Source: a virus
Length of the DNA: 34,628 bases
Reading direction: 5' to 3' (one strand)
IMG/VR virus record: IMGVR_UViG_3300044858_001561
Location: 1-34,628 of that record
Shown: positions 9,164-30,776 of the stretch, piece by piece
Position numbering within the stretch: the first letter of the stretch is position 1
How the letters are laid out: each line of letters opens with the position of its first letter
The notes under the pieces: model-generated
Databases searched by the model: none
What the model was told of the DNA's origin: nothing
The model's input: only the letters and a program-made list of their open reading frames with translations
Made by a program: the position numbers and the translations under genes

Positions 9164-9194
9164 AATCATAACTACGATTCAACTGGAGGTTGAA
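9164..9194 (+). promoter_or_regulatory. Repeated translation-initiation leader, copy 1 (SD in hairpin loop)
   Basis: These 31 nt recur at 10937-10967 with two mismatches. The 3' part forms TTCAAC-TGGAG-GTTGAA, a perfect 6-bp stem whose loop holds most of the Shine-Dalgarno GGAGG. ATG 9196 follows directly and decides that start over the in-frame TTG at 9190. Confidence 0.7.
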
Positions 9195-11822: not shown

Positions 11823-11870
11823 GGGTGTAGCACGGTAGGTAACCTCTACCGTGTTACACCTTTGGTGTAA
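11823..11870 (+). promoter_or_regulatory. Two mutually exclusive hairpins after the VWA-like gene (terminator/attenuator candidate)
   Basis: Hairpin A is 15 bp: GGTGTAGCACGGTAG (11824-11838) with CTACCGTGTTACACC (11846-11860), with one G-U pair. Hairpin B is 7 bp: TTACACC (11854-11860) with GGTGTAA (11864-11870) and loop TTT. Both use 11854-11860, so only one can form at a time. A short U run follows hairpin A. Confidence 0.55.
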
Positions 11871-12384: not shown

Positions 12385-12546
12385 ATGATTATTAACAACT
12401 TGAAAAGTTGGACGACAAGCGAATTGTTGGACCAACTGCTAAAGAATCGCAACAACATTAAAGTTGTTGAACAAGAAAACGCACAGATTATTGAAATCTG
12501 TGAAAGCAGGATTAAAGAAATCAAAGATGCGATGTATAAAGATTAG
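12385..12546 (+). CDS. Short coiled-coil protein (53 aa)
   Basis: ATG 12385 (or the GTG just before it) to TAG 12544-12546. MIINNLKSWTTSELLDQLLK followed by a heptad-rich segment with IKVVEQENAQIIEICESRIKEI suggests a single helix or coiled coil. No family is recognised. Its stop codon ends on the first base of hammerhead stem II, so ribozyme cleavage would leave a 3' end 29 nt past the stop, protected by the stem III hairpin. Confidence 0.55.
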   Translation: MIINNLKSWTTSELLDQLLKNRNNIKVVEQENAQIIEICESRIKEIKDAMYKD

Positions 12547-12604
12547 GACGAAAAACGGGACTTCGGTCCCGTTTCCACAAGTATATGCTTGTGCTGATGA
12601 GTCC
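12546..12604 (+). ncRNA. Type II hammerhead self-cleaving ribozyme
   Basis: All core parts are present in order. Stem II 5' strand GGAC is at 12546-12549 and GAAA at 12550-12553. Stem III has 9 bp including A15.1-U16.1, with a UUCG tetraloop (12553-12561 with 12566-12574). The cleavage-site nucleotide is C17 (12575). Stem I has 6 bp, CACAAG/CTTGTG (12576-12581 with 12588-12593), with loop TATATG. CUGAUGA is at 12594-12600, and stem II 3' strand GUCC at 12601-12604 gives the canonical G10.1-C11.1 pair. The open ends lie on stem II, so the type is II. Stem II may extend past an internal loop by UAAA (12537-12540) with UUUG (12607-12610). Predicted cut: between 12575 and 12576. Confidence 0.92.
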
Positions 12605-12615
12605 AGTTTGATTCA

Positions 12616-12628
12616 CACCTTGGAGGTG
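12616..12628 (+). promoter_or_regulatory. RBS hairpin before the DUF3846-like gene
   Basis: CACC-TTGGA-GGTG, a 4-bp stem, holds GGAGG (12622-12626) across loop and stem, five bases before ATG 12633. It lies on the downstream product of hammerhead cleavage. Confidence 0.4.
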
Positions 12629-12632
12629 CATT

Positions 12633-13250
12633 ATGGGTACAATGGTTAGCGGAGCGTTACTCCCTTGCGGAGTTGGTAACACGATAGAACCTGCGATTGT
12701 TGAGGGGTTGGAATCCTTGCAACAGTATGTTGGCGGCATGATTGATGCTGTTCGTACCGAACTGGAAGATGGAACGGTTATCGTTGGTTATGTTAACGAT
12801 GAGGGTTTGATGTTGAACATGGAAACAAACTGGTTTGCCAGTGCGTTGTTTGACCGTCAAATTGTTGGTGATGTTGTGCTGGTTTCGGGTACTTCACCTG
12901 AAGGTGAATATGATGGTGAGAATTATGATTTGCCTGAAAATTTCTTCAGGTTCTTGTCCACGAAATTCACGGAACATGTTGCCCAAACATACAATGAGTC
13001 CATGGTTATGACGCTAGGTATCAACCTTGCCCACAGGTTCGGTGTGATTGACGATGAAGAAATGCGTGATTTGCAACAGCAGATTGATGATGCGGTTGAT
13101 GGTGGCGATGATGCCGCTTTGAAAGCACACTTGCTGGACATCTCTGAGCGTGTTACCAACTTCGTTACGAACTATGTGTCGGAGCGTCACGCTGATGACA
13201 TGATTAGCGGTTTGGAAGAACTGTTGAAAACAGAAGCAGAAGGGAAATAG
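12633..13250 (+). CDS. DUF3846-like protein
   Basis: 205 residues. The N-terminal 90 residues (EGLESLQQYVGGMIDAVRTE, then VIVGYVNDEGLMLNMETNWF and a segment with IVGDVVLVSG) match the DUF3846 pattern found in phages and conjugative elements; its function is unestablished. The C-terminal half is acidic and helical (IDDEEMRDLQQQIDDAVDGG...). It is the first gene downstream of the hammerhead, so its mRNA would start with a 5'-OH and the stem I hairpin after cleavage. The ATG is set by GGAGG at 12622-12626. Confidence 0.7.
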   Translation: MGTMVSGALLPCGVGNTIEPAIVEGLESLQQYVGGMIDAVRTELEDGTVIVGYVNDEGLMLNMETNWFASALFDRQIVGDVVLVSGTSPEGEYDGENYDLPENFFRFLSTKFTEHVAQTYNESMVMTLGINLAHRFGVIDDEEMRDLQQQIDDAVDGGDDAALKAHLLDISERVTNFVTNYVSERHADDMISGLEELLKTEAEGK

Positions 13251-16954: not shown

Positions 16955-17874
16955 TACCACAATATTTAGTGGACCCGTTTATAACTTTATTTCGTGGACG
17001 AGGTGATGTCTATGGACATGACGAAGGTCGTTGCGTCAAAGAGCAGTTAACAAACGAAGTGTTCCAAAAACATTTATCAGGTGAAGCACCAATAGGTGTT
17101 TACCCAATGCTCCCACATTGCGACCAGTTTTATGTTGCTTGGGGTTGCGTTGACTACGACACAGCAGACGCAGAAGAAAACGCCATAAAACTACATGATG
17201 CTTTAATGCAAGCAGGTGTGGTTTCATGGATTGAGCGTTCACGGTCCAAGGGATATCATGTTTGGGTATTTGCCGAGCATGCTGTCCTTGCCGAAGATAT
17301 GCGAAACATGTTGCTGATGGCATCACAGGTAGCAGAAACACCAACAACAGAAGTTAATCCGAAACAAACAACATTGAAGGAGGGTCAGTATGGGAACTAT
17401 GTTCGGTTACCGTATGCGAATGTTTATGACAGATACACGGAAAAGCAACGCATCATTCCGAGAGCCAGCATTGAGAAAGGCACTTATCGCAGTCCGATGC
17501 TGTTTAACGACTTCGTTCGTGCGGCTATTGAAAGCCGCACTTCCGAGGAAACGATTAAGCGCATCGCATCCATGTATCAACCACCCAAGCAAGAAACGGT
17601 TGTAACCCATGCTTATGTTTATGATGCAACTCTTGACGAGGCTATGCGTGTACTTAGCCCGTTGGGTAAAGTCATTTGGCGTGACGGACCGTTAGCAGGC
17701 AAAGACAGGTCATCCACACTGGCGAAACTAGGTCACGAAACTGTGCGCAGTGGATTGAACCCTAGTCAGACAAAGATTGTGTTGATGACAGCCGATAAGC
17801 GTTGGGGCAAATATCATTTGCGCCATAACGGCGAGGACGAAATAGACAAACTAGTAGTCAGGGTACATTCGTGA
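16951..17874 (+). CDS. Archaeo-eukaryotic-type primase (AEP superfamily)
   Basis: The real start is GTG 16951, overlapping the helicase TGA and preceded by TTGGAGG, giving 307 residues. The AEP catalytic core is visible: WGCVDYD (about 64-70) with two Asp of the hhDhD motif, then SRSKGYHVWVF (97-107) with the sxH-type His103. YGNYVRLPYANVYD (about 148-161) may supply the third motif. The C-terminal 100 residues (TLDEAMRVLSPLGKVIWRDG...) may be a helicase-binding or primase-C region. It primes DNA synthesis and may also extend primers, because AEPs include primase-polymerases. No other polymerase is visible in the early operon. Confidence 0.78.
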   Translation: MIPQYLVDPFITLFRGRGDVYGHDEGRCVKEQLTNEVFQKHLSGEAPIGVYPMLPHCDQFYVAWGCVDYDTADAEENAIKLHDALMQAGVVSWIERSRSKGYHVWVFAEHAVLAEDMRNMLLMASQVAETPTTEVNPKQTTLKEGQYGNYVRLPYANVYDRYTEKQRIIPRASIEKGTYRSPMLFNDFVRAAIESRTSEETIKRIASMYQPPKQETVVTHAYVYDATLDEAMRVLSPLGKVIWRDGPLAGKDRSSTLAKLGHETVRSGLNPSQTKIVLMTADKRWGKYHLRHNGEDEIDKLVVRVHS

Positions 17875-18452
17875 CAACAATACTCGCAATCCAAGGTGAC
17901 GACTTCTGTGCAATCGGTTCCGACTCACAATGGACCGATGACTATAATCGTGTCGGAAAAATGAACCAACCCAAAGTTGTGTCTGTGGGCAGATATCTGA
18001 TTGGCGTAGCAGGTGATACCCGTGGTGCAAATGTCATCCAACACATCTTCACACCACCAGTGCTACCACCAAAGTTGGTGGGAGCAAAGTTGGCAAAATT
18101 TATTGTTTCACAATTCTTGCCATCCTATAAAGAATGTTTAGAAGCAAACGGTGCAGGTCGCCCACAATATGATGACCAGCCTGCACAATCAGCAAACGAT
18201 TTGCTGGTGTGCGCAAACGGAACCATCTTCCAAATAGATTGCGACTACGGAACCGAAACAGACACATGCAACCTGTACGCAATCGGTTCAGGCGCACATT
18301 ATGGTTTAGGTGCCATGCAGGCTTACACAAATGGTAAGCGTGTCTCACTGGCAAGTGCTAAACAGGTGTTACTGAAATCGCTTACTGTGTCAGCAAAGTT
18401 TGACAGCGGTTCAGGTTCACCCTTCCACACATTCATCCAACAAACAAAGTAG
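17871..18452 (+). CDS. Proteasome-like Ntn hydrolase
   Basis: 193 residues from GTG 17871, overlapping the primase stop. MTTILAIQGDDFCAIGSDSQ followed by KMNQPKVVSVGRYLIGVAGD is the proteasome beta/HslV opening. After Met removal Thr2 would be the nucleophile, with Asp18 and Lys35 at the positions of proteasome Asp17 and Lys33. A Gly-rich YAIGSGAHYGLGAMQAYTNG in the C-terminal half also fits the fold. No propeptide is needed. Family members form rings and hydrolyse peptide bonds, and I have seen relatives in actinobacterial phages. Its target is unknown, and no regulatory ATPase is adjacent except the MoxR-like protein 7 kb away. Confidence 0.75.
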   Translation: MTTILAIQGDDFCAIGSDSQWTDDYNRVGKMNQPKVVSVGRYLIGVAGDTRGANVIQHIFTPPVLPPKLVGAKLAKFIVSQFLPSYKECLEANGAGRPQYDDQPAQSANDLLVCANGTIFQIDCDYGTETDTCNLYAIGSGAHYGLGAMQAYTNGKRVSLASAKQVLLKSLTVSAKFDSGSGSPFHTFIQQTK

Positions 18453-20122: not shown

Positions 20123-23100
20123 GGTTTAGTTTCTTTTTTAGGCGGCTTTGGTGGCTGCAACAATTTTTCAAGTGTTTTAATATCTTTAGCACTCATTGCT
20201 TCACCACGGTTAACTTTGTCCTGAAAAAACTTCCCAACCTCAATACTTCGGCTTATTGCCTCAGATTCTTGCTGCTTAGGACCAACATAACGAACGGGAA
20301 TACCAAACCAGTTAAGAATGTTACCCAACTGGCGTTCCTGATATGAACTCTTGCCACCTGTCAAACCACCCGTAACACGGTTCAACTGCCCAAATGTTGG
20401 GAAAGCGTTTTGGAAAACATAAGCCACTCGTGGGTCCAAAGTGGTTTCACCATCAGCATTTTTTGAAACCCAACTGTCACCACCCATAATTTTTGTAAGC
20501 GGAGCCAAAATATATTTGTCTATAATACCAGCCGCTTCGGTTTGTTGGTCAAGTGTTTGGAACGGACCAACATCAATACCCAACTGTTTACCAGCAATTA
20601 ATTCAAGAGGAACTTTAACAAGTGGTGTTAATTGACCGACCAAACCCTTTGGTGTAGCAATCTGTTTTATTTGTTGTTCCAAACGAGCAATAGGCGTGTC
20701 GGGTGTCAATACCCATTGACCACCCTCACCGTTAGGACCGCCCAAAGCAATCGGGTTCCAATCAGCAATCCACTTAGGAACCAAAATATCGTCACCAACA
20801 GGAGATGCTTCTGTCAACTTCCTGTAGTTTTCGTATGCCATTGGGTTTGACCATTGTTGAACCATTTGCAACGGAACATTTCGGCTTGTCCAAATCCAAA
20901 ATGGAATCCATTGTTTAGCAACCTCATCAAAACCACTCAGGTCACTATAATCAAAGTGGTTGCGAGTAACACGAGAAACCGCTTGGTCAAAAGTTTTACC
21001 CTTCTTCAAACTGTCCAACGCCATAGGCATACGCACGGCACGCTCAACAAAGTCGTTCTTCCTTTGGAAGAACCGTGTGTACGAGTTGTTCACTGCACGC
21101 TCACCAAAACCAGTGCCATAGGCAACGCTGGATAGGTCATCGGAAATACCACGACCTGATGTTTCTGCAACCTTCCAAGCGTTTTCATAAAGTTCTCGTT
21201 CTTTTGCTGGCAACTTGGACAAGAACCTTTCCCAACTGTCACCATTGCGTGCAGCCGTAGCGGCTGCAAAACCATCACGAATATTTTCTAAATCAACACC
21301 ATCAATCATGTTAACAAAAGTTGCAGACAAACCGTTACGGGTAAAGAAACCAACAGAAGCAGTAGCATAGGTTTTAAAGAACTTCATAGTGTACTTGTAA
21401 CCTTTATAAAACTTATTTTGCCATAATGGTGAACGCAACCTGTCAAGGTTTGGTTTCCAAATCTTCAAAATATCTTCAGGCATTTGAACACCCAAACCAG
21501 CAATTTCTTCCCAACCCTCTTGGGTGACATCAATCATGCGACCAAGCCAACCACTCTTAACATTGGACAAAGCGGTTTCAACAGCAGGTAACGCAACACC
21601 TTCCAAGCGTGCCAACTGTGCTTCATCAGCATGCAACAATCGTGTAACACGCTCATAAGCGTTACGCAACGCAGGGTCCTGAATACCACCCATAGAAGTC
21701 AAAGTGGCATCAACACGGCGCACCCAAGCAGAAGCATCACCAGCGGCTGCACCACTCGGAGGGCGAGCCTGAAGCAACATTCTCATATCTTGAATGTCAC
21801 GCTGCAAAACAGTACCAGTAGTCTGAGAATAAGTTTTCAAAACCTTAGCCTCATTCAACAACATAGGCAAACGATTTTTATAATCTGTTATCGTTTCAGG
21901 TAACGCCCCACCCTTGGTTCCACTTCTAGGAACACCAGCCTTCACATAGGCGGCATCAATCTGCTGTTCCAAACGCATATAAGCAGCCTCTAAACGCCTG
22001 TCAGAACGCACCAAAGCCCGTTGAGCCTGCTCACGAGTCAAAGTAACCTTCTCACCATTACGCACGATGTCCACGCTGTTCGTTGCCATCAGTTGCGCCC
22101 TAGCCGCTTCAGCCTTGGTTGCACGAGCGTTCTGCGCTCGTGTCAAACCACCCTTCTGACCAGCCAACTTCCTAACCTCAGCCCTAGCCTCAGCAGAAAG
22201 AACCTGAGAATTTTCCAAAGCAATAATTTCTTCCTCTTTTATTGCTTTAGCAGTGCTGGCTTCCAACGACTTCTCTTCATAACGACCTGCACGAATGTCA
22301 CCAACAAACTGATTATCTGCAACATACTGCACCCGTGCTTGCGGATTCCTAGATGGGTTACGAATGTTTGCAGGCATCGTGTACTCAGGGTCCATCAAAA
22401 CAGCCCAATGACCTTCCAAACCTTCAACACCTTCATCAATCCAAGCCTGCGGAACCAACAAACCTGCATCACCCAAAGGCGCATTGTTTCGGATGTAATG
22501 CGCCATTGCATCGTCCATAATTTCTCGGGCAAAAATGTCTGCATCCTCAACTGTTTCGTCAAGGCTGGTAGCAAAAATCCTGAGCAAATCATCGGTGTCA
22601 CCAAGCGCACCCAAAATAATTTCATCAGCAACATCATCACCTGATGTTGCAGCATGGTTATTTACTGTCCTAATTATTTCAGCCAACTCGGGGTACAGGT
22701 CCTCAAACATTGGGTCAAGAGAACCGCTGTTGGCAAAGTTTTGGGCTTCTGCACGCAAAGCGTCACCAGCCTCCAACAAGCCACGCTGTTCAAAACTGTC
22801 GGCAATACCAGCAATAATTCCATCTTCACGGAAGAACTCTTGGAACGATTTTCCTTCACGCAAATCTATAACAGAACTAGGACCAGTAGGTGATGCTTGT
22901 GTCACGGGCGCATGTACAGCAACACTGGATGGGAAGGTGTCAAAACCTTCCTCAACTGGCTTGGTACGGAAAATTTTGAATGGCATTGATTCCCGTGGTA
23001 ACGGAATCAAATCATTAGCAGAACCATAAATCAAACCTTCACTAGCATAATCTGCTTCAGCACGGACATTTGCCAGAACAGAGAAACCAGACTCAACTTG

Positions 23101-25656
23101 TTCCAAATCATAATACTGTGATTCAAGTTCAGCACGGGCGGCAGCATACTGTTCGCCTGAAGGAATAGAATCAATCTGTGTACGCAACTCTTTAAGACGG
23201 GCGTTAATAACACGGGTTTCACGGGCTGCAGGAATACCACGACCATTAAGAATCTTTTCCGCCAACCACTCAGGAGACTTTTTGTCCAACATCGCAGGAG
23301 TGGCGTTCGGATACATCTGTGTGTAAAGTTCACGCAACTGCAATGTCGCCGCATAACGGTCAGGGTTATCAATAGCGGCACGCAACACTGTAACTTCTTC
23401 CAGCAAAGCGGAGTGCATAACAGCAAACTCGCCACGCTGCGTTGCTTCCAAGGTCAAAGCATACTGATGCGATTCGCTAAGTTTGAAAATAGCCTCGTCC
23501 AAACGCCTGAACAGAGTGTCAATTTCTTTCTGATTAAACTTCCTAGCCTTGGTTTGTCCACGCAAAAAGTTTTGTGCAGCATTAACCGCTGTCGTAACAT
23601 AATCTTTAGTCAACTGTTTGTTCACGCCAATGCGTGAACGAAACTTGTTTTGCATAGTCAACAAACCTGCATGAACCTCAGTCAACCGAGTAACCAAAGC
23701 CTCATCAGGAATAACTTCTTTCAACATTGGCTTAATGATGTCTGAACCAAAATCCATTGCCCGTCTAGCAAAAGCCTCACGACCTTTAGCCTTAGCCATA
23801 GAGTAAGCATAAGAATCCATAACAGAAACAAAATCTGTTTCAAACCAGTTAAACAACTTATCCTCGGGATACAACCTATTTCCAGCAGGGTCTTTCAAGG
23901 TACGCAAATGGTCTTTAAAAATGTCGTTTAATTCATCAATGCTGCCAGTTTTAACTTCTTTAAGAAAAAAGGTTGAAGTAACAGTTTCACCAGTATCAGG
24001 ATTAACATAAGGCGCACGAAGTTTACGGAACATCATCGGACCATTTGGGTCCGTCAAATCTTTCGTAGTTATATCTGCACTACGGAACGAACCAGCACTT
24101 TGAGCAAGTTTACCTTTTTCAGAAGTCACCCAATTTCGTGCTGCAGTGCTAATTCTGTGATGAATATAATCATCAATCAAACCAATTTGACGAACATTAA
24201 CACCATAATCTGCACCAAATTTAAGAATCTTAGCGTTGACATCATCACGAACAGAATTTTGCCAAATTTTGGTGTCTCGTGCCAACTGTTTAAGTTCCTC
24301 ACTAATCGGCTGAACAATTAACTCAGACTCAGGCATTTCAACATACTTATAAAGATTCGCTGCAGCATCCTCACGAACACCGAACTTCAACTTGTTCCTA
24401 GCACCCTGACCAGTCATCTCACGCTGACGCTTAATCAAATCTAACAAATCCTGATTATAACGACTAAGCGAAGTTGCTACAGCAGCCTTCGCATAACGAG
24501 AACCAGTGAACTCAACCAACTTAGGAATCAAAGCCTCGTTAGTTAAACCTCGTCCACGACCGAAACCAACTTCACGCAAACCCTTTTGGCTTTTGGGTGT
24601 TAAAACTTTTTCGCCAACCAATCCAACAGTTGTGGCAAGTTTCCCAGTTTTGTTATTGAAAACAACATCGCCAATACCTGCTCTAGCCCTACCGAATGTT
24701 GCGGCAAATGCACGCTCAGCACCACCAGTCCTAGGAATTACAACACCTGCATAACGCAAACCCATGTTGATACCTTCGGCTTTGGCAACAGCCTTAGGGA
24801 TGCCTGCTGCACCAAGGCGACCAATACGGTCAATAACACCAGCGTTATTTAACACAGGGTATTTGGCTAACATTTCTGCTGTAGCAAACTCCATAGACAA
24901 AGCAGTTCTACCTGAGTAGCCCATGTTGACATGTGCGCCAACACCAAAACGGGTTAGTGGGTCAATATAAATTTCTGTAGCAACCTGCGCTACGGTGTTT
25001 AATGTGTCGCTTCCAAGACTGGCAACATTTTTGTTTGGGTCACTACCAAACAAAGCAAATTCTTTATCGTTGATACGGTCAACAAATCGTTCAAAAGTTG
25101 GACGGTTTTCATCAAACCATTTTGCGTCCCTGAGTCGGCGTTCGGCATTTTTGCTTTCCAAAAATGTTCCCTCAACCGCTTTATCTATCTTGACACCCAA
25201 CTGTGTGTATGGGCGCAAAACTACCTGTGCAGAGTCTGCAATAGTAGCCTGAGTAAAACGACTAAAATAACCTAAACCAGTCATAGCAGTTTTTACCGCT
25301 GGAGTAACAGTTTGTTTTATAACAGGAAGTTGACCCGTTGCACGCACGGCAGAACCTGTAGCACCCAACACGGCTCCACCAACAGTCTTAGCAAGACCTA
25401 AAATTCCTCCACCGCCACCTACAGGTGGACGCTGTTCACCTTTACGGGTAATAGCAATCAGTTGTTCCGCTACACGACTTTTATCTTTTTGGTCAATAGT
25501 TGGGTCAGAAATAATGCGCTCCAACGCATTTTGTTCAGTTGTTTGTAACTCATCACGGTTAGGTGTTGGAGGTGGTGTACTAATGGTACGACCCAAAATT
25601 TTGGTAGGACCAGCAGGGACAACTTGTGTAGCCCAAGGAGTTTTTTTGATAGCCAT
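20119..25656 (-). CDS. Very large internal virion / DNA-ejection protein (1845 aa)
   Basis: A single 5.5 kb ORF at the 3' end of the late genes. The N-terminus has a Gly/Ala/Val-rich amphipathic stretch (ILGLAKTVGGAVLGATGSAV, about 84-103). Long charged helical sections fill the middle. The C-terminal third has FFTRNGLSATFVNMIDGVDL, VERAVRMPMALDSLKKGKTF, NHFDYSDLSGFDEVAKQWIP and WTSRNVPLQMVQQWSNP, which I associate with large ejection-type proteins (T7 gp16-like, LPD38-like). No lysozyme or transglycosylase motif is seen. It probably leaves the capsid with DNA to form the channel through the cell envelope. It overlaps the next-upstream gene (TAATG). Confidence 0.75.
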   Translation of the reverse strand: MAIKKTPWATQVVPAGPTKILGRTISTPPPTPNRDELQTTEQNALERIISDPTIDQKDKSRVAEQLIAITRKGEQRPPVGGGGGILGLAKTVGGAVLGATGSAVRATGQLPVIKQTVTPAVKTAMTGLGYFSRFTQATIADSAQVVLRPYTQLGVKIDKAVEGTFLESKNAERRLRDAKWFDENRPTFERFVDRINDKEFALFGSDPNKNVASLGSDTLNTVAQVATEIYIDPLTRFGVGAHVNMGYSGRTALSMEFATAEMLAKYPVLNNAGVIDRIGRLGAAGIPKAVAKAEGINMGLRYAGVVIPRTGGAERAFAATFGRARAGIGDVVFNNKTGKLATTVGLVGEKVLTPKSQKGLREVGFGRGRGLTNEALIPKLVEFTGSRYAKAAVATSLSRYNQDLLDLIKRQREMTGQGARNKLKFGVREDAAANLYKYVEMPESELIVQPISEELKQLARDTKIWQNSVRDDVNAKILKFGADYGVNVRQIGLIDDYIHHRISTAARNWVTSEKGKLAQSAGSFRSADITTKDLTDPNGPMMFRKLRAPYVNPDTGETVTSTFFLKEVKTGSIDELNDIFKDHLRTLKDPAGNRLYPEDKLFNWFETDFVSVMDSYAYSMAKAKGREAFARRAMDFGSDIIKPMLKEVIPDEALVTRLTEVHAGLLTMQNKFRSRIGVNKQLTKDYVTTAVNAAQNFLRGQTKARKFNQKEIDTLFRRLDEAIFKLSESHQYALTLEATQRGEFAVMHSALLEEVTVLRAAIDNPDRYAATLQLRELYTQMYPNATPAMLDKKSPEWLAEKILNGRGIPAARETRVINARLKELRTQIDSIPSGEQYAAARAELESQYYDLEQVESGFSVLANVRAEADYASEGLIYGSANDLIPLPRESMPFKIFRTKPVEEGFDTFPSSVAVHAPVTQASPTGPSSVIDLREGKSFQEFFREDGIIAGIADSFEQRGLLEAGDALRAEAQNFANSGSLDPMFEDLYPELAEIIRTVNNHAATSGDDVADEIILGALGDTDDLLRIFATSLDETVEDADIFAREIMDDAMAHYIRNNAPLGDAGLLVPQAWIDEGVEGLEGHWAVLMDPEYTMPANIRNPSRNPQARVQYVADNQFVGDIRAGRYEEKSLEASTAKAIKEEEIIALENSQVLSAEARAEVRKLAGQKGGLTRAQNARATKAEAARAQLMATNSVDIVRNGEKVTLTREQAQRALVRSDRRLEAAYMRLEQQIDAAYVKAGVPRSGTKGGALPETITDYKNRLPMLLNEAKVLKTYSQTTGTVLQRDIQDMRMLLQARPPSGAAAGDASAWVRRVDATLTSMGGIQDPALRNAYERVTRLLHADEAQLARLEGVALPAVETALSNVKSGWLGRMIDVTQEGWEEIAGLGVQMPEDILKIWKPNLDRLRSPLWQNKFYKGYKYTMKFFKTYATASVGFFTRNGLSATFVNMIDGVDLENIRDGFAAATAARNGDSWERFLSKLPAKERELYENAWKVAETSGRGISDDLSSVAYGTGFGERAVNNSYTRFFQRKNDFVERAVRMPMALDSLKKGKTFDQAVSRVTRNHFDYSDLSGFDEVAKQWIPFWIWTSRNVPLQMVQQWSNPMAYENYRKLTEASPVGDDILVPKWIADWNPIALGGPNGEGGQWVLTPDTPIARLEQQIKQIATPKGLVGQLTPLVKVPLELIAGKQLGIDVGPFQTLDQQTEAAGIIDKYILAPLTKIMGGDSWVSKNADGETTLDPRVAYVFQNAFPTFGQLNRVTGGLTGGKSSYQERQLGNILNWFGIPVRYVGPKQQESEAISRSIEVGKFFQDKVNRGEAMSAKDIKTLEKLLQPPKPPKKETKP

Positions 25657-26882
25657 TAGAACCTTATGGTTGTTCCGCTATTACTCAAAGAATCAATAAA
25701 TTCTCTAATGCGTTTACGCTCCTCTTCGCTCAACAAGTCACCTTCCACAGGCTTCCTGTCAACCAAATCAGGCATCCTATCAAACTTGGGTATGCCACCA
25801 GTCGTGTCAGGAGGCATTGTGGGAGCCTCAGGGACCACGGGTGTCTTGGCTGTAGGGTATTTTTCTGTGGCTCCTACACGGGTTTTGGCTGCCTCATCCA
25901 AAGCATCTTGCAAACGCTTCTGAACATCGGATTCCGCTGAAGCACGCTCACCAGCCAAACCAGCCAACAACTCATCATACTTAGATTGGATACCTGATTC
26001 TAGTCGTGGCTTTTCCAAAGACAAATAGTCACGACCAGCCTGAGAGGCACCACGACCAGCGTTAATAAGTGAGTTCAAATAGTTTTGTTGAACATCACCG
26101 TACTGTGCAGCGGAACGCTGCAACAACTGCCTAGTGAAATCGTTTAATGCAGCATCAGAAGCCTGCTGTGCCTGAACCTCACCTGTCCCCGCACCTTGCG
26201 ATTGTAAAGCAGCAATTAAAGCGTTCTGCTGTTGCGGCAAAGCCGTCAACGGCAAATCAGAATAAGCAGTAGTAGGACGAATACCTGAAATAAAGTTTTG
26301 TTCACCAGTATCAATATCTGCAGCAGACTGACCCAACACACGCTTCAACAAATCAATCTGTGCCTGCCTTTGAGTACCCAAAGCAGTTTCCCGTGGAGCA
26401 TAAAGTTCTCTTATAGCATCCAACGCTTTTTCGGAAGCAGTCTTTGCTGTAGATTCATAACCAGTAGCAGCATTAAGAATTGCTTCAAACGAACTTTGGT
26501 CACCAGCAGTTTCAGCCGCAGCCTTCGCTGTGTCGGCTTCAATTTTGGCTTGGTCAGTACGATACTCGTTACGCAACTTCGCACGGTTTGCAGGAGTATC
26601 TTTCTTACCCAAAATATTGAGTTGCTGCTCCACATAACTTCGTTCGGGTGTCATATTAGCCTTTCCTGCTGCTGGACCTGCTGCTGGACCTGCTGCTGGA
26701 GGGGTTCCAGCACCTGCAGGGTTTTTTACTACTGGTGGAACATAACTTTTTTGTTGCTTCTCTAAACCTTTTAAGCGTGCAGCATTTTCTTCCTGAAGTT
26801 GCTTCGCAATTTTTGCTGCAGCAATAGCCTTGTCACCCTCTGAGGAGCGAACAAGACGACCATTAACATATGTGATAGCCAT
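25656..26882 (-). CDS. Coiled-coil internal virion protein (408 aa)
   Basis: Ala/Gln/Lys-rich, mostly helical. The N-terminal coiled coil (about 18-46) precedes a Pro/Ala linker with three copies of PAAG. A long helical body with many Gln and Ala (DYLSLEKPRLESGIQSKYDE, then LLAGLAGERASAESDVQKRL) follows, and a Pro-rich C-terminus. Composition and place between the tail genes and the giant ejection protein suggest a second internal or ejection protein (T7 gp14/gp15-like), but I recognise no family. Confidence 0.6.
   Translation of the reverse strand: MAITYVNGRLVRSSEGDKAIAAAKIAKQLQEENAARLKGLEKQQKSYVPPVVKNPAGAGTPPAAGPAAGPAAGKANMTPERSYVEQQLNILGKKDTPANRAKLRNEYRTDQAKIEADTAKAAAETAGDQSSFEAILNAATGYESTAKTASEKALDAIRELYAPRETALGTQRQAQIDLLKRVLGQSAADIDTGEQNFISGIRPTTAYSDLPLTALPQQQNALIAALQSQGAGTGEVQAQQASDAALNDFTRQLLQRSAAQYGDVQQNYLNSLINAGRGASQAGRDYLSLEKPRLESGIQSKYDELLAGLAGERASAESDVQKRLQDALDEAAKTRVGATEKYPTAKTPVVPEAPTMPPDTTGGIPKFDRMPDLVDRKPVEGDLLSEEERKRIREFIDSLSNSGTTIRF
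26665..26700 (-). repeat. Three perfect 12-bp tandem repeats
   Basis: The plus-strand unit CCTGCTGCTGGA is repeated three times without change. It encodes the PAAG repeats in the linker of the coiled-coil internal protein and is likely length-variable by slippage. Confidence 0.8.
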
Positions 26883-26884
26883 AA

Positions 26885-27322
26885 TTAGTATCCTTGAAGT
26901 TGACGCAACGCAGTAGCGGCATCAACAATAGACTGGTTTTTACGCAACTTTAAATCAGCAATATAAGCCTCCAAGTCAGCCTGATTGCTTGCCTCATCCA
27001 TACTGATACGATTCAACTCGTCCTGAATATTGGTTGTTTCAGCACCCAAACTTTCTTGCAAACCACGGGCATACTGTTCCAAACCTTTGCGTTGAATACC
27101 TGACTGAACATTAGGACCAGCCAATCCACGCCTACCATACTGAGCCATTTTAGGTCCGAAACCCTCAACATATTTGCGGCTAATATCGGCAAGATTGCGT
27201 GAACCACGCTGCTGACCCAACATTGCAGACTGTGTATTAGCGATAGAACGCTTCTGTTTCCTGCGGATAGCCGCAGCCTCAGTCAGCCCATAATCACCTG
27301 AATACGCATCATACATACTCAT
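26885..27322 (-). CDS. Virion-associated helical protein (145 aa)
   Basis: I start at ATG 27320-27322 (MSMYDAYSGDYGLTEAAAIR), after GAGGT; a longer frame upstream covers the 56-aa gene. It contains an Arg/Lys/Gln-rich segment (KQKRSIANTQSAMLGQQRGS) and a C-terminal acidic helix ending in ALRQLQGY. Function is unknown. Position between the tail and internal-protein genes suggests an internal core or ejection component, as small Gln-rich proteins are in T7-like virions. Confidence 0.6.
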   Translation of the reverse strand: MSMYDAYSGDYGLTEAAAIRRKQKRSIANTQSAMLGQQRGSRNLADISRKYVEGFGPKMAQYGRRGLAGPNVQSGIQRKGLEQYARGLQESLGAETTNIQDELNRISMDEASNQADLEAYIADLKLRKNQSIVDAATALRQLQGY

Positions 27323-27323
27323 A

Positions 27324-27494
27324 TTAATACCTCGTCCGTTCCTTATTGGTAGAAGAGTTGGCACTCTTCAATAAATCAATTTCTTGCTGCATACGGGACA
27401 ACTCAGCCTGAAGAGAACTAAAAATGCGTTGCAAAGCATCTTTATCTGTACCTGTCAGCACGGACAGAAAGGGAGTTTGCCAGCCGTTTTGCAT
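27324..27494 (-). CDS. Short coiled-coil virion-region protein (56 aa)
   Basis: ATG 27492-27494 overlaps the previous TGA (TGATG) and the frame ends at TAA 27324-27326. MQNGWQTPFLSVLTGTDKDA is followed by a coiled coil (LQRIFSSLQAELSRMQQEID, about 21-40) and a charged tail. Tight coupling on both sides supports it. The product may be a small tail or internal component; no family is recognised. Confidence 0.6.
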   Translation of the reverse strand: MQNGWQTPFLSVLTGTDKDALQRIFSSLQAELSRMQQEIDLLKSANSSTNKERTRY

Positions 27495-27724
27495 CAGCCG
27501 AAAATCTGTGTACCCAAAACCACTTGGTCACCGTCACCAGCAGCAGTCAAAGCCGTAACCGTAGCGGCAGCCAACTTGCTATAAACGATTGAACCATCGT
27601 CCAAGTTTGTCCCTGCTGCCAATGCTTCAACAAAAGTTTTGACTTGGTTGAAGTTTGCGTTAACTTCTGTGGCAACGGCAGGCGTGCCGTTGACAAAAGT
27701 ATTTGGAATACTAAGAGTTGCCAT
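27494..27724 (-). CDS. Small tail-associated protein (76 aa)
   Basis: MATLSIPNTFVNGTPAVATE, then VNANFNQVKTFVEALAAGTN and SKLAAATVTALTAAGDGDQV. This pattern (TIPNTFxNGTxAxAxEVNANF) recurs at the start of small structural proteins and tail-fibre-like proteins in many phages, usually with no defined role. Here only that N-terminal module is present, without a longer fibre. It follows the nozzle gene with a two-base gap. Confidence 0.68.
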   Translation of the reverse strand: MATLSIPNTFVNGTPAVATEVNANFNQVKTFVEALAAGTNLDDGSIVYSKLAAATVTALTAAGDGDQVVLGTQIFG

Positions 27725-27726
27725 AA

Positions 27727-29337
27727 TTAACCTTTAATCCTTCGTGCTTGATATTTGTAACCGATACTGTTAATACCCCATTTTTGACTAGAGGGACCAA
27801 TAAATTCCAGTTGGACACACCTTGCTAAACCAAGGTTGCGACCAGCAAGAACAATAGAACTTGCTGCACCACTAGCCCAATCTTCACCCCATAAACCCGA
27901 ACCCCACAACAAAGCCGACACTGCAGGTGTTTGGGAAATGTCAAAAATCTTTTGCTCGTTACCTTCACCCTCAACAAAGTCGTGATAAATTTTTACTGTA
28001 ATGTTTTGTGCCGCATCAGATTCTTTAACAACAAAATCGGGTCTGCGAAACATTTTCTTTTGCATATAAGAACCGCCATCAAACCAACGGGTTTTATAAT
28101 AACTAGAAAAAGCAACATCAGTACCCGAAATGTTGTCCGACTCTTCGTTATACATGTCAACCTTCAAAACATACGCTTGCGTAGGATGACACATTAAACG
28201 ATAATCATTCTTAGAAGAATCAGTCCAGTTGCAACCACCAACCAAACCGTAACCATCATGTGAAGAAAACTTTGTGTAAACACCACCACGAATAGTCGGG
28301 TCTAAAACAAAATTCACCGTAGGAACAGTAGGAGTGCTATCGGTGGAATATGGTGCAGAAACCCAAATACGGCGACCAACATAAGAAACACTAATAGATT
28401 CATGGTCGGCAGGGTTAATATGATTCAAGTCAATTGCGGTACGCAAATTGTTAAACATATCTTTAATCGTTGAACCATTATAAAAATATAGTCCCTGATT
28501 ATGGCTAAAAAAATATACGCCATCTTCCGCCTGAGCAATAGAATGATGGCTTATAGAACCCAAACGGGTTGTTAGTTCAACAACTTGAAAGTTGTCGGAA
28601 GCGTAACCAAAAATAATGTAAACAGCACTGGGTTTAAAAACAACAAGTTGACCTGACGCAATAGCCATGCCAGTAATACCGTTACCTCCACCAACAATAT
28701 CAAAATAGTCAGCCTCAGCCCAGTTTTCAGGAGAGTTTTCCAAAGACCAACGCAATCTGTTTGGATAATATGTTCCATCCTCGGTAGTGTTGGCAGCCCA
28801 CATTTTATTAGCGTGGACAAGAAGATGTTCCGCTGTTGGCATTTTACGCTCAGCAGTAGTCGGGGTGCTTTGCCAGTCATGCGGATTGGTACCCGATGCT
28901 GTCAATGCTGTGGCGTAAGTGCTGGATGTTTTCCAAACATAACCACCGCTACCTGCAGAACCAGTAGCAATATACATTGAGTCAGCCCACTGTGCCATAC
29001 AAACACCATGCGCACTAGTAGAAGTAATATCGTTACCCGAAGAATACTGCAAAGTAGTGAAGTTTCCACCAGTGGATTTATAAACTTTGGTGCTATTAGC
29101 CAACATGATTGTTGGCGTGGCACCACTAAAAGAATACAACTTCTGTGGACTCCAAGTACCAGCAACTGCTGTACTGTTCAACTGACGGTATGCGCCACGA
29201 CTAAACACACCACCTCTAGGGTCAATTTCAACATTGTTCATGTCGGGTGATTCAAAAGTAGACAACTGAAATTGGTCTGCACGAAAGTTCAGACCACCAG
29301 TGAAATCGCTCACCTCTGTAATGTTTAAACCAGCCAT
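27727..29337 (-). CDS. Tail nozzle / beta-propeller protein (P22 gp10 / T7 gp12-like)
   Basis: 536 residues. FTGGLNFRADQFQLSTFESP, then DMNNVEIDPRGGVFSRGAYR are typical of the N-terminus of podoviral nozzle proteins. Repeated blades follow (VYKSTGGNFTTLQYSSGNDI, KPSAVYIIFGYASDNFQVVE, HSIAQAEDGVYFFSHNQGLY). The C-terminal beta domain ends WGINSIGYKYQARRIKG. It forms the distal end of the short tail, below the adaptor. Overlap with the adaptor stop (TAATG) supports stoichiometric coupling. Confident at the functional level, family assignment by pattern. Confidence 0.8.
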   Translation of the reverse strand: MAGLNITEVSDFTGGLNFRADQFQLSTFESPDMNNVEIDPRGGVFSRGAYRQLNSTAVAGTWSPQKLYSFSGATPTIMLANSTKVYKSTGGNFTTLQYSSGNDITSTSAHGVCMAQWADSMYIATGSAGSGGYVWKTSSTYATALTASGTNPHDWQSTPTTAERKMPTAEHLLVHANKMWAANTTEDGTYYPNRLRWSLENSPENWAEADYFDIVGGGNGITGMAIASGQLVVFKPSAVYIIFGYASDNFQVVELTTRLGSISHHSIAQAEDGVYFFSHNQGLYFYNGSTIKDMFNNLRTAIDLNHINPADHESISVSYVGRRIWVSAPYSTDSTPTVPTVNFVLDPTIRGGVYTKFSSHDGYGLVGGCNWTDSSKNDYRLMCHPTQAYVLKVDMYNEESDNISGTDVAFSSYYKTRWFDGGSYMQKKMFRRPDFVVKESDAAQNITVKIYHDFVEGEGNEQKIFDISQTPAVSALLWGSGLWGEDWASGAASSIVLAGRNLGLARCVQLEFIGPSSQKWGINSIGYKYQARRIKG

Positions 29338-30053
29338 TATTGATTAATTTTCAAACCCTGACCCATGCGAGTCATCCAACCATTAAAAGTAGGACGACCA
29401 GCGGTATAACCAGCAGACAACACCAAATGCGCATGACTGTTAGGGGTCTTAATGTTTTTGACAGCCAAAGCAACACCCTCATCAAAAGAACGCTTATACA
29501 CATCAGCCATAGCGACATCTTCAAGCCGTTGATAAACACGACTGCAAGCATAATAAACTAAAGCAAAATGCAAATTAGGACTAGCATCCACATTGCCACC
29601 AGTTGTAACCCAATCAATAGGTTCACGATAACCACGAACAATCAAAGTACGAACATCGTTCGGCTTTGGATACAAATGGATTTTTCCTTCCCAAATAGTA
29701 TAAAACAAAGGGTTGCTACTAGTGTCATACGAACCAATATAAGTGTTCTCAGCCTCATCATGCGAAACCATATCCAAACGAGAACCAACACCAGTATTGT
29801 CCACAATAGAAACAATCTGCGCCATAGGGTCAGCAGTAAAAGCATCAATACTGTATGCACGCTGGTCAGCAACAGTGTTAAAAGTAAAAGTTTTTGCAAG
29901 AAAATCCCAACGCTTCTCAATATCCAAAATACGGTAATAACCGTCACGAATATAAAGATTCAGCAAAGCATCAGGTAAATCGGTAGCATCCAAATCGGTG
30001 ATGTCCCGTACTGCTTGACGCAACGAAGTTGCGTTCATTTGAGCGTATGCCAC
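29337..30053 (-). CDS. Head-to-tail adaptor (P22 gp4 / T7 gp11-like)
   Basis: 238 residues starting at GTG 30051-30053 with AAAGGGGA upstream. MNATSLRQAVRDITDLDATD, RDGYYRILDIEKRWDFLAKT and a region like EGKIHLYPKPNDVRTLIVRG with REPIDWV are characteristic of adaptor proteins. A helical segment (HFALVYYACSRVYQRLEDVA) and a basic C-terminus complete it. It sits between the portal and nozzle in the virion. Its position directly before the nozzle gene fits podoviruses. Confidence 0.8.
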   Translation of the reverse strand: MAYAQMNATSLRQAVRDITDLDATDLPDALLNLYIRDGYYRILDIEKRWDFLAKTFTFNTVADQRAYSIDAFTADPMAQIVSIVDNTGVGSRLDMVSHDEAENTYIGSYDTSSNPLFYTIWEGKIHLYPKPNDVRTLIVRGYREPIDWVTTGGNVDASPNLHFALVYYACSRVYQRLEDVAMADVYKRSFDEGVALAVKNIKTPNSHAHLVLSAGYTAGRPTFNGWMTRMGQGLKINQ

Positions 30054-30281
30054 TTAGTCCCCTTTCTGCTTATTATGTTGCCTTAAATGACCTGCACACA
30101 GTTCTTGTCCACGCACCTTATTAGCCCCACAGGAATCATCGTTAGCCGTACATTTGTCGCCACGACCAATGTACGGTCCACTAGGTGCAGCCAATCTAGA
30201 CCCCGTTTGGATAATAGCCAAACGGGAACCAGTTTGAGGTTCCCCATAAAGGGTGTGAGCAGGGACAGAGTTCTTAATCAT
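30054..30281 (-). CDS. Small cysteine/histidine protein (75 aa)
   Basis: I start at ATG 30279-30281; the frame can open at TTG two codons earlier. KCTANDDSCGANKVRGQELC followed by AGHLRQ places three Cys and one His as a zinc-binding knuckle near the C-terminus (Cx6Cx11CxxH). I have seen this pattern in aquatic phage structural regions, function unknown. No SD is close to the start. Confidence 0.55.
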   Translation of the reverse strand: MIKNSVPAHTLYGEPQTGSRLAIIQTGSRLAAPSGPYIGRGDKCTANDDSCGANKVRGQELCAGHLRQHNKQKGD

Positions 30282-30308
30282 ATACAAATAGCGTATATGT
30301 TCCTTGAA

Positions 30309-30776
30309 TTACTGGTCTTGACCGCCGCTAAGAATACGCAACAAATTCTTAATATCATTAGGCAAAATGCCGCCAACAACCTTAGCCCCAGTAGCACCAG
30401 TCTTTTTAAGACGCTTACCAACCTTACCCAAACCCATAGGAGCAATACCCAAAATAGCCATCAAAGCATCCTCAGGTTTACCCTTTTCGGAAAACTTGGC
30501 AACATCCTTAATACCAAAAAAGTCGGCAACATTGCTTTTAGCAGCAGCCTCACCAGCCAACCCAAGTTGACCCAACAACTTACGGGTATTATCGTTTAAA
30601 CCTGCAGCACCAAACTGATTAGCCATACCACCCTGAGTGTTGCGTGGCACATCCATTTCAGATGCCTGTTTACCTAAAGACAAAGACTCAGCACCGACAA
30701 GATTGTTTAACAAAAACTTTGTTAAATCATCCCGAGAAATACCAGCAGCCTTCTTCTTCGGCTTAGCCATAGCCAT
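30309..30776 (-). CDS. Hypothetical virion-region protein (155 aa)
   Basis: Basic N-terminus (MAMAKPKKKAAG), helical middle (LTKFLLNNLVGAESLSLGKQ), then ALMAILGIAPMGLGKVGKRL and GAKVVGGILPNDIKNLLRIL, hydrophobic/amphipathic segments at the C-terminal end. It may be an internal or membrane-active minor virion protein. I recognise no family. It is the fourth of a series of small basic genes between capsid and adaptor. Confidence 0.55.
   Translation of the reverse strand: MAMAKPKKKAAGISRDDLTKFLLNNLVGAESLSLGKQASEMDVPRNTQGGMANQFGAAGLNDNTRKLLGQLGLAGEAAAKSNVADFFGIKDVAKFSEKGKPEDALMAILGIAPMGLGKVGKRLKKTGATGAKVVGGILPNDIKNLLRILSGGQDQ

Follow-up and report, generated by a model that had tools for sequence, protein, structure and literature searches.

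We found a complete type II hammerhead ribozyme (HHR), open on stem II, at positions 12546–12604 of a 34,628-nt viral DNA sequence (hereafter the window, meaning the whole stretch analysed), followed by a 3′ tail that can pair back onto the ribozyme. Our best reading, at a probability of roughly 60%, is that the ribozyme would cut a phage mRNA co-transcriptionally within a short interval and that a tail hairpin would then lock the product. The presence of the ribozyme, its conservation, its junction placement across phages and the covariation of the tail pairing are shown here, whereas we infer that the RNA cuts, in what sequence it folds in the cell and what follows for gene expression.

Structure and gene context of the ribozyme

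Read base by base, the element runs GGAC GAA AAACGGGAC-UUCG-GUCCCGUUU C / CACAAG-UAUAUG-CUUGUG CUGAUGA GUCC, where the slash marks the predicted cleavage site (Table 1). The invariant core, comprising CUGANGA and GAA, the A15.1–U16.1 and G10.1–C11.1 pairs and H17, is present by base reading and in the covariance model (CM) alignment. Stems I and III are closed by loops and stem II is open, as seen in the minimum free energy (MFE) fold, the CM alignment and the compensatory changes of relatives. Stem II has 4 bp including G10.1–C11.1, stem I has 6 bp and one possible G·U, and loop I fits the conserved U-N-A type of this subtype. The RNAfold MFE structure was exactly the hammerhead (−24.1 kcal/mol, z −4.2 against shuffles), and a CM trained on 22 HHRs of the same layout from other phages scored the window element at 50.4 bits (E 1.4e-12). 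The initial annotation, made from the letters alone, had thus correctly recognized a complete type II HHR with all invariant elements. We regard the structural assignment as nearly certain and catalytic activity as very probable. The same annotation called type II the rarest permutation, which is mistaken: in bacteria it is as frequent as types I and III (Perreault et al. 2011; PMC3088659).

The TAG stop codon of the upstream ORF (12544–12546) has its G in common with the first base of stem II, and the downstream gene has a Shine–Dalgarno (SD) sequence, GGAGG, at 12622–12626 and its ATG at 12633. The HHR therefore begins on the last base of a stop codon and ends before the ribosome binding site, as initially described, with a same-strand stop just 5′ and an SD and start just 3′ of it. 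Of 215 GTCC-type phage HHRs, 97% have an A directly before stem II, which in the window is supplied by the TAG stop. The downstream product, initially called DUF3846-like, matched DUF3846 (Pfam PF12957) at E 4e-10. The window belongs to a dsDNA phage: its + strand encodes a DnaB-like helicase and a primase, its − strand the major head protein and internal virion proteins, and the replication genes follow downstream of the HHR on the same strand as the HHR. Searches of annotated phage records returned no DNA or protein match. The presence of a complete type II HHR at a junction of the phage replication-gene operon is supported.

Table 1. Features of the ribozyme locus and of its variant-core orthologues (positions refer to the window unless a relative is named)
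Feature	Position	Strand	Basis or remark
Upstream small ORF P0002, 54 aa	12382..12546	+	Homologous ORF in L003
A directly 5′ of stem II	12545	+	Middle base of TAG stop
Stem II 5′ strand GGAC	12546-12549	+	Base reading, MFE fold, CM alignment
Core G12 A13 A14	12550-12552	+	Base reading, CM alignment
Stem III, 9 bp, UUCG loop	12553-12561/12566-12574	+	Base reading, MFE fold, compensatory changes in relatives
A15.1 paired with U16.1	12553/12574	+	Base reading
Predicted cleavage site C17 / C1.1	12575/12576	+	Placed from hammerhead core
Stem I CACAAG UAUAUG CUUGUG	12576-12581/12588-12593 (hairpin 12576-12593)	+	Base reading, MFE fold
Core CUGAUGA (C3-A9)	12594-12600	+	Base reading
Alternative (trap) hairpin UGAGUC/GAUUCA, 6 bp	12598-12603/12610-12615	+	Loop CAGUUU
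Stem II 3′ strand GUCC	12601-12604	+	Base reading, MFE fold
SD hairpin CACCU-UGG-AGGUG	12616-12628	+	Around SD of DUF3846 gene
Downstream DUF3846 gene, 205 aa	12633..13250	+	PF12957, phrog_3777
Variant-core orthologous HHR	L003 2915-2970, L004 2916-2971, L005 1201-1256		

Elsewhere in the window, an HslV-family peptidase-like phage protein is encoded at 17871–18452 beside the primase and helicase genes, and a strong hairpin (CACGGTAG...CTACCGTG; 11826–11860) lies between a DUF7192 gene and the next gene, possibly as a terminator or processing site. At several + strand genes, a short and perfectly paired hairpin holds the SD in its loop or next to it (window SDs at 9185, 10958, 11890, 12622 and 15398; sequences ATTCAAC-TGGAG-GTTGAAT, CAACCT-AGG-AGGTTG, CACCT-TGG-AGGTG and CAAGC-AGGAG-GCTTG). 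The arms of such hairpins vary compensatorily in the relatives L003, L008, L011 and L020 (TACCT/AGGTA, AACAC/GTGTT), and a clade-wide role in translation control is possible.

Chance occurrence and detection by covariance models

We searched viral contigs with the letters of the core and stem II only, without demanding stems I and III. Stems I and III of at least 5 bp were rightly placed in 237 of the 261 unique matches, compared with 0.1% of shuffled middles. A separate count of covariation in stems I and III is partly circular because its descriptor demanded both stems; the core-only search is the non-circular version. Together with the z score of the fold and the E value of the phage CM, this result led us to reject a chance origin of the HHR. 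The same CM, run with filters off, found no second HHR in the window.

The initial annotation had proposed a search with a type II hammerhead CM as a check. With Rfam this check came out negative: the window gave no HHR match, RF02276 (Hammerhead_II) returned nothing even at E 5, and the HHR did not reach its gathering threshold of 37 bits. The Rfam model misses this HHR because it describes another subtype with a pseudoknot and a stem II of ∼2 bp. Permutation and core are common to both, but stem II of RF02276 has 2 bp, as against 4 bp in the window HHR, and the paired stem I of the model is longer. RF02276 recognized some HHRs in L117 and L164; at E 1, all eight of L158 and those of the DUF3846 clade went undetected. 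Given that the model misses the subtype at most loci checked, annotation of viral genomes probably undercounts such ribozymes.

Conservation among DUF3846 relatives

Relatives of the DUF3846 protein were found on 12 viral contigs. The HHR of L001 was identical to that of the window, and an HHR was also found directly before the DUF3846 homologue in L002 and L006 (∼63% protein identity), L037 (48%), L098 (34%), L011 (31%) and L020 (29%), so that homologues preceded by an orthologous HHR span 29–99% identity. In these last six contigs the sequences of stems III and I differ, with pairing kept by compensatory changes. Every invariant base is kept in the window, L001, L002, L006, L011, L020, L037, L098 and L118. 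A comparison of the intergenic gap in related phages, as initially suggested, thus showed the HHR to be retained with compensatory stem changes before homologues of down to ∼30% identity. In L007, L008 and L010 the HHR was located two genes earlier.

L003–L005 retain the HHR architecture (40.5 bits) with a variant core of U15.1–A16.1, A17 and U·U at 10.1/11.1, and their tail hairpin, GAUUC/GAGUC, is intact and compensated. These core changes may make the HHR slow or inactive. In L009, no HHR was found in the gap 5′ of the DUF3846 gene.

The L009 gap (2865–2970) holds several other hairpins, e.g. GTGATACATAG...CTATGTGTCAC, with no Rfam match. At position 2995 of L002 and L006, the DUF3846 homologue lacks an ATG at the aligned start, where the codon is ATC.

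Placement at gene junctions across phages

Placement was assessed for 341 phage HHRs among the matches listed, a large, non-random sample. A stop codon was found within −30 to +5 of the HHR in 82%, an SD and start within 70 nt in 85%, and both on the same strand in 68%; the corresponding figures were 1.5% for the opposite strand and 2.9% for random positions. The stop ended within 0–2 nt of the HHR start in about one-third of cases (median −2).

Gene families downstream of HHRs (n = 138) included DUF932 seven times, DUF3846 four times and many families once, and HHRs also precede DUF6011, helicases and others. Because HHRs precede many gene families, we rejected a device specific to DUF3846; the HHR before DUF3846 is a feature of the clade, and the device is general to gene junctions. 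Of the programmed mRNA processing of the DUF3846-like gene that had been suggested initially, the processing stands as the best reading in light of the junction placement, and the specificity for DUF3846 falls away. It is likely that the HHR processes a polycistronic phage mRNA, and the layout of stop, ribozyme, SD and start in hundreds of phages is a strong argument for mRNA processing.

Whole contigs carried one HHR in the DUF3846 clade, two or three in some relatives and up to 13 in unrelated phages. In the L164 contig (G017), 13 HHRs were found within 8 kb (22533–30437), and in L158 (G018) eight within 3.3 kb, in both cases nearly one per gene junction.

Pairing of the 3′ tail with the ribozyme

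Two forms of pairing between the ribozyme and its 3′ tail were found. Both form a hairpin of 5–6 bp with a loop of ∼6 nt that is exclusive with the active ribozyme.

In form A, CUGAY (C3–N7) pairs with RUCAG in the tail. Base 7, which is free in hammerheads, matched its tail partner in 53 of 56 cases (T–A 30, C–G 22 and A–T 1; exceptions C–A 1, A–C 1 and one T–G wobble), and among 397 non-redundant HHRs this covariation had p = 6.6e-13. The tail played no part in selecting these HHRs, nor did base 7, apart from one scan each for A7 and C7. NTCAG was ∼25 times commoner in the first eight tail bases than farther 3′, and L117 and L158 each contained both matched types within a single contig. Across 2.9 million contigs, scans for exact matches located C7/GTCAG in 10 stretches, C7/ATCAG in none and the wobble T7/GTCAG in two. 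Almost none of the HHRs with A7 or G7 had a form A tail, the third pair type being represented by one case (L277). In bacterial genomes, 119 stretches were among the matches listed and 16 non-redundant HHRs passed the descriptor, one of them with a form A tail, a set too small to serve as a replicate. The evidence for form A pairing, which is covariation in sequence, is strong. The window itself lacks form A, its tail AGUUUGAUUCAC containing no RUCAG.

In form B, A9 and the stem II strand (GAGUC) pair with GAYUY ∼10 bases on, across a loop of CAGNNN. We defined the form by at least 5 bp between A9 plus the stem II 3′ strand and the tail, a loop of ∼6 nt and exclusivity with stem II. The window has this form with 6 bp, and its trap hairpin excludes stem II and part of the core. 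Among tails starting with AG, GRYUY occurred with GUCC stems at 21:0 and GUYUY with GACC stems at 4:1 (p = 3e-4). L286 (GACC AGUUU GUUUCAC) and the window (GUCC AGUUU GAUUCAC) are one compensatory swap apart, and further matched variants were found in L070, L075, L151, L128 and L003. Form B occurred in 6 of 64 non-GTCC stems vs 2.4 expected and in only 4 of 114 HHRs of the full GACC set, and its pairing is poor in L002 and L006 (GACCU). For form B alone the evidence is moderate, less strong than for form A. An equivalent trap on the 5′ side was rejected, with 21 cases of such pairing vs 19 expected.

Predicted folding along the transcript

The predicted probability of stem II was 0.97–0.99 with the transcript ending at stem II, and after tail emergence it was 0.04 for form A and ∼0.3 for form B. 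For the 305 of 386 folded phage HHRs that have neither form, it fell only gradually to 0.5. In the window it was 0.99 until 12613 and 0.06 at 12622, and then returned to ∼0.5 because the SD hairpin competes. In the 3′ product, the window tail hairpin had a predicted probability of 0.95 (computed on the identical L001 sequence). Since nearest-neighbour energies leave out hammerhead tertiary contacts, these values may misjudge the balance between ribozyme and tail hairpin in the uncut RNA; the tail covariation holds independently of folding energies.

According to our best reading, the ribozyme would fold co-transcriptionally once GUCC (12601–12604) emerges and would cleave the mRNA at 12575/12576. 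The 5′ part would then end in the stem III hairpin with a 2′,3′-cyclic phosphate, and the DUF3846 part would open with a 5′-OH and the hairpin of stem I. Once a few more bases have been transcribed, the tail would pair with the 3′ half of the ribozyme (12598–12603 with 12610–12615), ending its acting time; cut products would be locked apart with no religation, and molecules still uncut at tail emergence would tend to remain so. The proportion cut would be set by transcription speed and ribozyme rate. The outcome would be separate upstream and downstream messages, possibly unlike in stability or translation; effects on expression may include different stabilities of the 5′-OH and cyclic-phosphate ends and uncoupled expression of the two genes. 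The simple cutting picture of the initial annotation missed the competing downstream tail, with which the likely mechanism shifts from constitutive cutting to cutting within a limited time. We consider it probable that the tail is a timer or lock in the group as a whole, and for the window we hold this to be an even question. That phage type II HHRs are commonly self-limiting through a covarying exclusive tail hairpin, acting in the few tenths of a second before the tail is transcribed, is a tentative generalization.

Alternatives to timed cutting

Under plain constitutive processing, nearly every transcript would be cut, as with other phage HHRs, and the tail hairpin would only structure or protect the new downstream 5′ end by the SD. 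The gene-junction placement agrees with this, as do the strength of the hairpin in the 3′ product and the position of the SD, which in forms A and B begins ∼14–16 nt after stem II, just past the tail hairpin. Cutting also has no need of a tail hairpin, since most HHRs lack one. However, the hairpin borrows core or stem II bases of the ribozyme and covaries with them, so that it must form at the expense of the active fold. Were it only a 5′ stabilizer, its sequence would be unconstrained, and stem I already places a hairpin at the 5′ end. We consider this explanation rather unlikely.

Translation might instead control cutting: a ribosome at the abutting stop would cover the stem II 5′ strand and the tail hairpin, capturing the exposed 3′ half, would form, so that only poorly translated messages would be cut. 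The abutment of stop and HHR described above, which in the window is an overlap, would fit such control. Genome compactness would also bring the two this close, as would use of the conserved A as part of the stop codon, and some HHRs lie farther from the stop. We consider translational control improbable.

The tail complementarity could also belong to a loop I–tail pseudoknot, a tertiary contact speeding cutting, which is reported for most type II motifs of Perreault et al. (PMC3088659). Loop I–tail pairing of at least 4 bp was found in 15.6% of the 397 HHRs vs 13.0% with permuted tails, with no excess within form A or B either; it is base 7 and stem II with which the tail covaries. The window loop I pairs with at most three of the first 10 tail bases, short of the published pseudoknot. 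The pseudoknot was thus rejected as the reason for the tail and is very improbable. A once-active relic drifting in the clade and no longer cutting, to which the core changes of L003–L005 and the absence of the HHR from L009 would point, is scarcely credible given the invariant bases kept amid compensated stem changes in the window and in the eight contigs listed with it above.

Relation to known hammerhead ribozymes

Type II HHRs flanking phage genes have been known since 2011 and are not rare. Perreault et al. (PMC3088659) describe them as common in bacteria and clustered around prophage genes, propose that they process long phage transcripts, and point to HF1/HF2 and A. tumefaciens for in vivo support; a 2017 review still counts the role of HHRs as open (PMC6155905). 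The type II HHRs of the former share with the window subtype the core, the stem-II-open permutation, the placement by phage genes and often several copies per phage (PMC3088659). Their consensus includes a loop I–tail pseudoknot (PMC3088659), whereas the window subtype has no pseudoknot signal and differs in its stem II (4 bp, GGAC/GUCC-like), the A that precedes this stem, a loop I of the U-N-A type and a tail that often pairs with the ribozyme itself.

Two described systems are close in layout. The HHphage of haloviruses HF1/HF2 lies, like the window HHR, before an early gene of a polycistronic operon, 13 nt from its start, and a transcript has its 5′ end no more than 3 nt away from the cutting site (PMC3088659); unlike the window, it has a variant core, an archaeal host and a helicase gene downstream. 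In the triple HHR around ardA of an Agrobacterium tumefaciens prophage, HHRs separate phage genes as in the window, and they were cut in vitro and in vivo when expressed in E. coli; the genes are different, and the excerpts of PMC3088659 report no tail hairpin.

The window HHR by itself is therefore a known kind of ribozyme, and the covarying off-hairpin is what is new. In viroid hammerheads, the core can be hidden in an alternative non-cleaving pairing after processing. That alternative fold is a long rod-like circular RNA, whereas that of the window is a short local mRNA hairpin. Within a limited literature search we found no description of the tail hairpin, so a 3′ tail that often pairs back onto the ribozyme is new as far as that search shows. 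The covarying tail hairpin provides a concrete, mutable handle on timed or locked cutting. If the self-limiting reading is true, the speed and pausing of transcription would set the share of each polycistronic message that is cut, and the cut would be irreversible.
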